60,559 bases of DNA from positions 1-60,559 of the forward strand of contig JAFGGD010000056.1 in assembly GCA_016930695.1 (NCBI GenBank). Direction: 5' to 3'. A program made the position numbers and the translations under genes. This stretch comes from Candidatus Eisenbacteria bacterium (lineage in GTDB: Bacteria; Orphanbacterota; Orphanbacteria; Orphanbacterales; Orphanbacteraceae). Shown here in pieces: positions 51,684 to 54,707 of this stretch (positions are counted from its first letter, which is position 1; each line of letters begins with the position of its first letter). A model generated the notes under the pieces. The model saw only the letters and a program-made list of their open reading frames with translations. It had not been told where the DNA came from and did no database searches.

Positions 51684-52484
51684 TCAGCGCGGAGAAGGGG
51701 GCGGGGCCGCGCAGGCGGCGCCGCGGCCGTGGTGCGAAACGAGCAGGGCGAGCAGCTTCGCCCGCGCCTCCGGGCCGAGGCCGAGACGCTCCGCCTCCCC
51801 CTCGAACCGTTCCGGTCCGCCGTATCCCCCGAGGTACCCGTTCAGCCGCGCCGCGGCCGTGGAGGCCGCGAACTCCTCCTCCCCCGGATAGGCGGCGCGC
51901 ATCTCCTCCATCAGAAAGCCGGCCTGCCGAAGGAGGTATTTCTGATGATACGCCTCGGCGGGCCAAAAGGAACCGGCCGTTTCGATTTTGGTGTAAACCT
52001 TCCGGCCGAGACGTTCCTCGTTCCGGGTGAGGCTCTCCCGCGCGAGGCGCTCCTGTTCGGCGCCGTGGGTGAAGATCGCGGAACGGTACTGGGCGGACCA
52101 GGGCCGGGCCGTCGGGTCGTGCTCCTCCCAGAATACGCGAAGAAGATCCTCATAGCCGACCCGCGCCGGGTCGTATTCGACGCGAATCGTCTCGGCGTGA
52201 TCGCCGAGAGAATGATAGGTGGGGTTTTCCTTCCGGCCCCCGGCGTAGCCGACGGTGGTCCGAAGGACACCTTCCAAGCTCCCGAACCGGGAGTCGGGTC
52301 CCCAGAATCAGCCGAGGGCGAAGTCGGCGACCCGCGTCTCCGCCGGGCGCTCCCCGTCGATGGGCGGCGCGGGGCGGCTCGGCGCGGCGTTTGGCTTTCT
52401 CGACATGGCCGTTCCTTCTCTCGGAGCGGCGGCGGCGAGCACGATCATCGTGGCGAGCACCGCCGCGGCGCGCATGGTTCGCAT
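51684..52484 (-). CDS. msrA: Peptide-methionine (S)-S-oxide reductase MsrA, predicted selenoprotein, exported
   Basis: MsrA reduces methionine-S-sulfoxide in proteins. The catalytic GCFWG motif is here Gly-TGA-Phe-Trp-Gly: TGA at 52310-52308 (codon 59) falls exactly on the catalytic Cys. The frame is continuous on both sides (VADFALG before; FWGPDSRFGSLEGVLRT after). Reading TGA as selenocysteine gives 266 residues. The mRNA just after TGA folds a bSECIS-like hairpin (52279-52293). The ATG at 52484 follows GGAGAAAGGGG and begins a signal-peptide-like stretch (AAAVLATMIVLAAAA), so the enzyme is probably exported. A possible resolving Cys is in GRGAACAAP. SelA/SelB/SelC genes are not in the window. 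Confidence 0.8.
52279..52293 (-). promoter_or_regulatory. Predicted bSECIS hairpin downstream of the msrA TGA
   Basis: On the minus strand, 14 bases after TGA, CTCCC pairs with GGGAG around the loop GGTTC. A short GC stem whose loop carries G-U, about 20 bases from the UGA, is the layout of the bacterial SECIS recognised by SelB. Confidence 0.55.
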
Positions 52485-52564: not shown

Positions 52565-53506
52565 TCAGAGCGTGCGGGGAAGAGGGATGGGGGAGCGGGC
52601 CCGGCGCGCGGCGCGCACCGCGTCGACCGTGTAGAGGGCGAGGGCGACCCAGACGGCGGCGAAGCCGATGAAACGAACCCGCTCGAACGGTTCGCCGTAG
52701 ACGAGAACGCCGAGGAGAAACTGCAGCGTGGGAGCGATGTAATGGAGAACGCCGATGGTGACGAGCCGGACCCGGCGCGCGGCGTGGGCGAACCAGAGAA
52801 GGGGGAGGGCGGTGACGGTCCCGGAAAGGGCGAGTAGTATGTCGATCCGCGCCCCGGCGTGGCCGAAGGCGCCCGCGCCGGTCCGCTCCAGGAAGAGCAG
52901 ATAGGCGAGTGCGGGCATGAAGATGAGCGCCGCCTCGATGGAGAGCCCCTCGAGGGAGTCCAGAGGCGCCGTCTTCCGGAGGAGGCCGTAGAGGCCGAAT
53001 GTGGCGGCGAGGACCAGGGCGATCCAGGGGACGCCGCCGTACCGCCAGGCGAGCCAGGCGACGCCGGCGCCGGCGACGGCGATGGCCGCCCACTGGGCGG
53101 GCCGCGGCCGCTCGCGAAGGAAGAGAACGCCGAGGAAGACGTGAACCAGCGGGTTGATGAAGTAGCCGAGGCTCGCGTCCACCATCCGGCTCTCGGTCAC
53201 CGCCCAGATGTACACGGACCAGTTGACGGTGATCAGCGACGCGGTGAGGAGGAAGAGGAAGAGCGTGGCGGGGCGGCGCGCCTCGCGGAGCACGCGCCGC
53301 CACCGTCCGCCCGGAAGGAGAAGTAGGGTGGTGAAGAGGAGCGACCAGGCCATCCGGTGGCAGAGGATCTCCCGGGCGGGGACGCCGTGGATCGCCTTCC
53401 AGTAGATCGGAAGGAGCCCCCAGAGCACGTAGGCGCCGACGCCGTAGAGCACGCCCGCGCGCGCGGAGCCCGGCGCAGGGGCGCCTCTCCCCTCCCTACC
53501 GGTCAA
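52565..53506 (-). CDS. rarD: RarD-type EamA transporter
   Basis: A 313-residue protein with ten membrane segments and the RarD signature ATLFLFLLTASLITVNWSVYIWA, SLGYFINPLVHVFLGVL and IGVLHYIAPTLQFLLGVLV. RarD proteins export unknown compounds (chloramphenicol-sensitivity family). The TTG at 53506 overlaps the preceding gene's stop by 11 bases; GTG at 53452 is an alternative that would begin at VLYGVGAYVLWG. Confidence 0.85.
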   Translation of the reverse strand: MTGREGRGAPAPGSARAGVLYGVGAYVLWGLLPIYWKAIHGVPAREILCHRMAWSLLFTTLLLLPGGRWRRVLREARRPATLFLFLLTASLITVNWSVYIWAVTESRMVDASLGYFINPLVHVFLGVLFLRERPRPAQWAAIAVAGAGVAWLAWRYGGVPWIALVLAATFGLYGLLRKTAPLDSLEGLSIEAALIFMPALAYLLFLERTGAGAFGHAGARIDILLALSGTVTALPLLWFAHAARRVRLVTIGVLHYIAPTLQFLLGVLVYGEPFERVRFIGFAAVWVALALYTVDAVRAARRARSPIPLPRTL

Positions 53507-54707
53507 CGCCGTACCGTTCCCAGATCACGTTCACGATCCGCCAGTCGTCGCCGAAACGGGCGAGATGCAGGTAATCGACGAAATCCGCCGACACGGTTTT
53601 CACGACGGCCGTGTTTCTTTGCATATCCAGGATTTCAACCCGTAACACCTTCGCCCCCGGATCATCGCTCCTCCCCGGCCGGGCGGCGACGGCGCCGAGC
53701 AGTTCCTCTTTCGTGAGGGGAACGAGCGTGACGGCGCCGCTCTCCCGGTCGCGCAGCGCCCCCCGCTTCGCCAGGTCCGGGTGGAGCGCCCGGTCCATCC
53801 TCTCCACGTCGCCCGCGTACCACCCCTCGATGTAATCCCTCGCCGCCGCTTCGATCCTCTCCCGGGCGGCGTTTTCGAGAGCCCATTCGGTGACGTCGCC
53901 GATGCCGTCCTTCTTTTCGGAACAACCCTCCGGATCGCGGACGCAGCGGAAACCGACGTTGCAATCGATCCAATAGGTGGGGAGATGGTGACGGCGGGAG
54001 ACGGAGATGCAACCGGGTCCCGAATGCCATCCGCCCCCGCGAACGACGTGCTCCCCTCCCTTCGCCGGTCCCATCGGGTTTCGCGCCGGGCTCCGGTCGT
54101 AGTAGCGGGGATCGTAGCGGTCCAGCACCCATTCGGCGGTGTTGCCGGTCATGTCGTAGAGGCCGTACCCGTTCGGCCCGTAGCTTCCGACCGGCCTGGT
54201 CCCTTCGGACTTATAGTAATTCGCGAAGCTGGTGTCCCGTTCTTCCCCCCAGGCGTACGGGGCGCCCTCCAAACCTCCCCGGGCGGCGTACTCCCACTCC
54301 GCCTCGGTGGGGAGGCGTTTGCCGCACCACTCGGCGTACGCCTTCGCCTCGGCCCAGGAAACGCCGATCACGGGGTGGTCCGGCCACTCCGGCCCGCAGC
54401 GGAACGACTCGTCGCCCCAGAATTCGTTCGGCGCGCGTCCCGTCGCGTTCAGGAAAGCCTCCCAGTCGGCGCAGGTCACCTCGTACCGGTCGATGTGAAA
54501 CGAATCGACCCGGACCTCGTGGACCGGACCATCGGTGAGTCCCCCCTCTTTCCCCATCGAGAAAGAGCCGCCGGGAACGAGGACCATCTCGTCCCGGGGA
54601 AGGGTCTCCCCCACGGACCAGCGGCCGTGAACATGGCGGGTGCAGGCGGAAAGGGGCAGGGCGAGGAGGACGAGCGCGACCGGGATCGCGCGTTTCCATC
54701 GGCTCAC
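53496..54707 (-). CDS. FGE (SUMF1)-like lipoprotein fused to an NTF2/lumazine-binding-like domain
   Basis: A 403-residue protein with a lipobox-type signal (VALVLLALPLSAC). Residues about 38-265 are an FGE/SUMF1 domain (MVLVPGGSFSMGKEG, RYEVTCADWEAFL, LPTEAEWEYAARG, HVVRGGGWHSGPG). After a linker, residues about 285-400 are a cystatin-like NTF2-fold domain of the lumazine-binding type (ARDYIEGWYAGDVERMDRAL, FGDDWRIVNVIWERY). The combination suggests a ligand-binding surface protein. The GTG follows AAGGAGAGAG. It ends in an 11-base overlap with rarD. Confidence 0.7.
   Translation of the reverse strand: MSRWKRAIPVALVLLALPLSACTRHVHGRWSVGETLPRDEMVLVPGGSFSMGKEGGLTDGPVHEVRVDSFHIDRYEVTCADWEAFLNATGRAPNEFWGDESFRCGPEWPDHPVIGVSWAEAKAYAEWCGKRLPTEAEWEYAARGGLEGAPYAWGEERDTSFANYYKSEGTRPVGSYGPNGYGLYDMTGNTAEWVLDRYDPRYYDRSPARNPMGPAKGGEHVVRGGGWHSGPGCISVSRRHHLPTYWIDCNVGFRCVRDPEGCSEKKDGIGDVTEWALENAARERIEAAARDYIEGWYAGDVERMDRALHPDLAKRGALRDRESGAVTLVPLTKEELLGAVAARPGRSDDPGAKVLRVEILDMQRNTAVVKTVSADFVDYLHLARFGDDWRIVNVIWERYGVDR

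Follow-up and report, generated by a model that had tools for sequence, protein, structure and literature searches.

Gene and in-frame TGA

The window, i.e. the whole 60,559-nt stretch of contig JAFGGD010000056.1 (Candidatus Eisenbacteria bacterium, assembly GCA_016930695.1), carries on its minus strand an msrA coding sequence at 51684..52484, with 266 codons followed by a terminal TGA, as delimited by the reading frame and by Pfam and PDB matches. Read from the ATG at 52484 to the TGA at 51686-51684, it yields a product of 266 aa once an internal TGA, at 52308..52310, is counted as a residue. The minus-strand context of this codon is TTC GCC CTC GGC TGA TTC TGG GGA CCC GAC TCC CGG TTC GGG AGC. 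It falls at the MsrA catalytic residue (FALG-U-FWG), with homology and frame unbroken on both sides, and would correspond to selenocysteine 59 of a GUFWG motif. UGA would hence have two uses in the same gene, as Sec at codon 59 and for termination.

The 266-aa product matches the PMSR catalytic domain (PF01625) with an E-value of 2.4e-42 over residues 54-187 (51924..52325, minus strand), followed by the MsrA_helical domain (PF20939; E = 3.9e-7, residues 202-236, 51777..51881, minus strand), a C-terminal helical domain which is typical of selenoprotein MsrA and is also seen in the structural model. It scores above the cut-off for NCBIfam msrA, and its top PDB match is the Sec-MsrA of C. oremlandii (8.3e-47). 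The initial annotation had placed a TGA at the catalytic residue, with continuous frame and family similarity across it, and both points are confirmed by the frame, the two Pfam domains and the PDB match. Automatic annotation would end the gene at this TGA and would miss the only MsrA found in its own genome by a six-frame search. Based on these sequence data, the gene almost certainly encodes a selenoprotein methionine-S-sulfoxide reductase, with UGA 52310-52308 predicted to be read as Sec and the enzyme predicted to be active.

A putative SECIS hairpin downstream of the UGA

A hairpin resembling a bacterial SECIS element, CUCCC-GGUUC-GGGAG, lies at 52279..52293 (minus strand), with its loop beginning 19 nt past the UGA. 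Single-sequence folding, performed for the window only, gave z-scores of 0.12 and -0.54, i.e. no more stable than shuffled sequences, so the case for this hairpin rests on conservation. The Rfam SECIS model RF00031 had no match in the own genome, but none in any control genome either, so that its silence carries no weight, and a sensitive Rfam scan of 52200-52340 returned chance hits only.

Among the Sec-MsrA loci described below, codons +6, +7 and +9 after the UGA are almost without synonymous variation. At these positions Ser is always TCC, Ala is GCC in 10 of 11 cases, Arg is always CGG, Gln always CAG and Gly always GGG, whereas neighbouring glycines use all four triplets. GGG at Gly +9 is found in 26/26 loci versus 23 of 128 other conserved glycines (18%; Fisher p = 3e-16, relatedness ignored), and CGG is used in 17/17 cases versus 9/42 elsewhere (p = 1e-8, 26 distinct loci, relatedness ignored). 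All sequence statistics in this work ignore phylogenetic relatedness. The nearest helical-clade Cys homologues have GGT, GGC or GGA at this glycine. Standard pairs occupy 93.1% of the hairpin pair cells in the alignment of Sec loci, and nine double changes are counted versus 3.3 in shuffles, which is clearly above any slid register. The outer pairs covary, and RNAalifold recovers the same hairpin. Judged by this conservation, the hairpin is real, and the earlier proposal of a bSECIS-like element about 20 bases from the UGA holds, with the frozen codons and the covariation as its basis. The nearly invariant core CCC-RGUUY-GGG of the Sec-MsrA loci could serve as a search motif.

Selenocysteine machinery

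The own assembly consists of 60 contigs and is 95.8% complete with 0.8% contamination. It contains a complete Sec decoding set, namely selA (531 bits), selB (368 bits), selD (397 bits) and a tRNA-Sec (71.6 bits) with anticodon tca (UCA), as had been predicted from the msrA gene itself (selA/selB/selC/selD). The selD gene is part of a nifS-selD fusion on contig C58 (L010 1396-3618, minus strand; 740 aa), with a NifS-like cysteine desulfurase domain at the N-terminus and a SelD of the Cys form. According to a 2015 survey (PMC4561486), only two NifS-SelD fusions were detected in prokaryotes. Adjoining it on the same contig is a SelR/MsrB-like ORF (L010 445-1173, minus strand; PF01641, 4.9e-24) with a hydrophobic N-terminus and with Arg (CGG) at the usual MsrB catalytic Cys (RYRIS versus RYCIN).

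Other selenoproteins were sought in the own genome by formate dehydrogenase and VPGUxxT searches. Since the formate dehydrogenase matches were under the cut-off and had no in-frame stop, a second selenoprotein could not be demonstrated there; the NCBIfam VPGUxxT family search matched the MsrA region only.

With these components, a route for synthesis can be proposed. SelA would charge tRNA-Sec, using selenophosphate from the NifS-SelD fusion, and the hairpin 3' of the UGA would recruit SelB with Sec-tRNA-Sec, by which the ribosome would decode UGA 52310-52308 as selenocysteine. In the enzyme, the Sec59 selenolate would attack the sulfoxide of Met-S-sulfoxide, releasing Met and forming a selenenic acid. 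With less confidence, this selenenic acid may then be resolved by the tail cysteine Cys258 as a selenenylsulfide, and starts at 52484 and 52406 may give rise to an exported and a cytosolic form, respectively.

Distribution and phylogeny

A six-frame search of 60 genomes identified two further MsrAs with one internal TGA, both in other families. With the loci added by a scan of the genomes of 84,980 species and by another search, of 386 genomes, TGA was found at the same MsrA codon in 27 distinct loci, window included, after removal of one duplicate (at least 26 besides the window). By record titles, these loci span about eight phyla: Bacillota, Nitrospirota, Chloroflexota, Acidobacteriota, Planctomycetota, Actinomycetota, a deltaproteobacterium and Rokuibacteriota.

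The phylogeny, covering 61 MsrAs, has a branch with 100/100 support that leaves the canonical Cys forms on one side; on the other are the Sec forms, which carry the C-terminal helical domain, together with the helical-clade Cys MsrAs. The window MsrA is placed among the Sec forms, its closest relative being without good support. The MsrAs from three genomes of the same family (L034, L038 and L040) fall on the canonical Cys side, and helical-domain MsrA is absent from the other genomes of this family (G001-G006), while selA occurs in the own genome and in four of the six relatives, i.e. in five of seven genomes of the family. Because none of the relatives has a helical-domain MsrA and those examined carry Cys MsrAs of the other clade, the Sec-MsrA gene may have been acquired horizontally, as a late arrival, or may have been lost by the relatives. 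Within the helical clade, the Cys-containing MsrA of a Halanaerobium sp. (L065, 449 onward) has 353 residues after the Cys that stands for Sec, and this long ORF has an MsrB-like C-terminal end, YCINSASLKF.

The simplest alternative to a selenoprotein would be an ordinary Cys MsrA in which a nonsense mutation or a sequencing error has turned TGC or TGT into TGA, leaving the gene broken or misread. TGA is indeed one base away from either codon and the sequence comes from a 60-contig assembly, but the same codon is TGA in 26 other distinct loci of many phyla with an otherwise intact frame, the hairpin codons are frozen, and the protein clusters with the Sec forms instead of the canonical Cys forms. 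Since recurrence across phyla combined with frozen hairpin codons cannot be explained by error or decay, this explanation is very improbable, in line with the initial annotation, which had considered chance unlikely. Less probable again, to the point of being negligible, is a genome-wide reassignment of UGA to a sense codon (Trp or Gly) without selenium. Such a code would account for an in-frame UGA within a conserved gene, but the Sec-MsrA gene itself terminates at TGA, the genome has the full selA, selB, selC and selD set, and an alignment with Cys and Sec homologues, which had been suggested as a check, has Cys at this position in all other aligned MsrAs, never Trp or Gly. On the recurrence, the frozen codons, the TGA terminator and the Sec machinery, we rejected a changed genetic code as well as a broken gene or a sequencing error.

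Structure and comparison to known MsrAs

Sec-MsrA was characterised in 2009, as cited in PMC13188914, and the gene therefore belongs to a rare but already known type of selenoprotein. Its exemplar is CoMsrA of Clostridium (Alkaliphilus) oremlandii (PDB 4lwj, 4lwk, 4lwl, 4lwm and 4u66; PMC4333827, PMC4479559), a 1-Cys enzyme without any Cys which is recycled by glutaredoxin and possibly by dimerisation (PMC4479559). An AlphaFold model of the window protein, built with 37 aligned proteins, has a mean pLDDT of 90.6 and superimposes on CoMsrA with a TM-score, taken by target length, of 0.91 and an identity of 40% over 204 columns. Helices are predicted between residues 202 and 251, and confidence is low for about 30 residues at the N-terminus and about 15 at the C-terminus, with a pLDDT of 56-61 in the tail.

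Both proteins have Sec at the same catalytic position, the same catalytic domain and the same PF20939 helical domain. The MsrA domain, catalytic UGA, helical domain, SECIS hairpin and Sec machinery of the CoMsrA type were all found for the window gene. However, CoMsrA has 209 residues, with the catalytic residue at position 16 and zero Cys, whereas the window protein is extended at its N-terminus by a hydrophobic stretch, may have a second start and carries a single Cys, located in its C-terminal tail. The 1-Cys type has no Cys besides the catalytic residue; the window protein differs by Cys258. In the 2-Cys type a second Cys resolves the catalytic intermediate, a role for which Cys258 would be the candidate.

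Canonical bacterial Cys MsrA and Sec-MsrA share the same chemistry. The canonical enzymes (TIGR00401; e.g., L034, L038 and L040) also have the same catalytic fold, but carry a catalytic Cys, are without the helical domain and lie beyond the 100/100 branch. The helical-clade Cys MsrAs of haloarchaea (L067, L071 and L073), Halanaerobium (L065) and L134 are on the Sec side of this branch, but have a Cys codon (TGC or TGT) where the Sec forms have TGA, and do not keep the hairpin codons.

Two possible start codons

If translation starts at 52484, the product begins with a hydrophobic N-terminal segment, AAAVLATMIVLAAAA (52425..52469, minus strand), a putative signal peptide or anchor. An internal Shine-Dalgarno sequence, AGAAGGA (52419-52413), is followed by an ATG at 52406-52404 (codon 27; 52404..52419 in all, minus strand), and a start here predicts a cytosolic form of 240 aa. 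The ATG at 52484 may therefore not be the sole start. Among the 19 Sec loci with an upstream hydrophobic segment, 13 carry an ATG in frame, 31-33 codons 5' of the Sec codon. ATG makes up 1% of codons elsewhere in the upstream regions of the Sec loci, and is seen in 2 of 75 at the corresponding positions of Cys MsrAs. Shine-Dalgarno energies predicted for the 31-33 codon ATGs average -6.0 kcal/mol, compared with -2.5 kcal/mol for other codons (p = 2e-6).

A hydrophobic upstream region is far more frequent in the frame of the gene, being seen in 14/26 cases for the own frame versus 6/130 for the other five frames, and several Sec loci have lipobox-like motifs in this segment. Combined with the conserved internal ATG, this suggests that both starts are used in many Sec-MsrA genes, so that a single gene would yield an exported and a cytosolic product. 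The initial annotation had described an exported MsrA with a signal peptide from 52484. Its hydrophobic N-terminus stands, but the conserved internal start implies that a cytosolic form may also, or mainly, be made.

The dual-start part of this interpretation, and that part only, has a rival in which just the start at 52406 is used, making the enzyme purely cytosolic with the upstream hydrophobic stretch untranslated. The ATG with Shine-Dalgarno kept in 13/19 loci would fit this, as would L054 and L062, which are without a long upstream frame and also begin at that ATG. We nevertheless consider it rather unlikely, given the 14/26 versus 6/130 excess of hydrophobicity in the own frame, the lipobox-like motifs upstream in several homologues and the purine-rich GAAAGGGG that also precedes the first ATG (52484).

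Tail cysteine

The only Cys of the window protein, Cys258 (codon at 51711..51713, minus strand), is located 199 residues after Sec59, past the last helix and within the flexible tail, and is a candidate resolving cysteine judged by sequence and model. A Cys 197-201 residues after Sec is present in 9/26 loci versus a Cys frequency of 0.3% elsewhere in Sec-MsrAs (p = 6e-11, relatedness ignored). It occurs in 8/11 proteins with a hydrophobic N-terminus without lipobox-like motif, in 0/7 with the motif and in 1/8 without an export signal, an exploratory contrast for which the export classes were hand-assigned after viewing the sequences. A resolving role for Cys258 is proposed because it fits the position in a mobile tail, and should be taken as a guess.

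Taken together, one gene may provide exported and cytosolic Sec-MsrAs via two starts, with the tail Cys making a selenenylsulfide-recycling Sec/Cys enzyme unlike the 1-Cys CoMsrA. We put this forward tentatively, as a combination that falls somewhat short of an even chance. Literature on a second start or a tail cysteine of Sec-MsrA was not found in a search that most subscription journals fell outside of, and novelty, if any, would lie with these two features. If confirmed, they would reveal how a single selenoenzyme can serve two compartments, and the 1-Cys mechanism established for CoMsrA would be extended.

Elsewhere in the window, an ORF at 53496-54707 (minus strand) encodes a fusion of an FGE-sulfatase domain (1e-60) with a lumazine-binding-like domain (PF12893, 6.2e-18).
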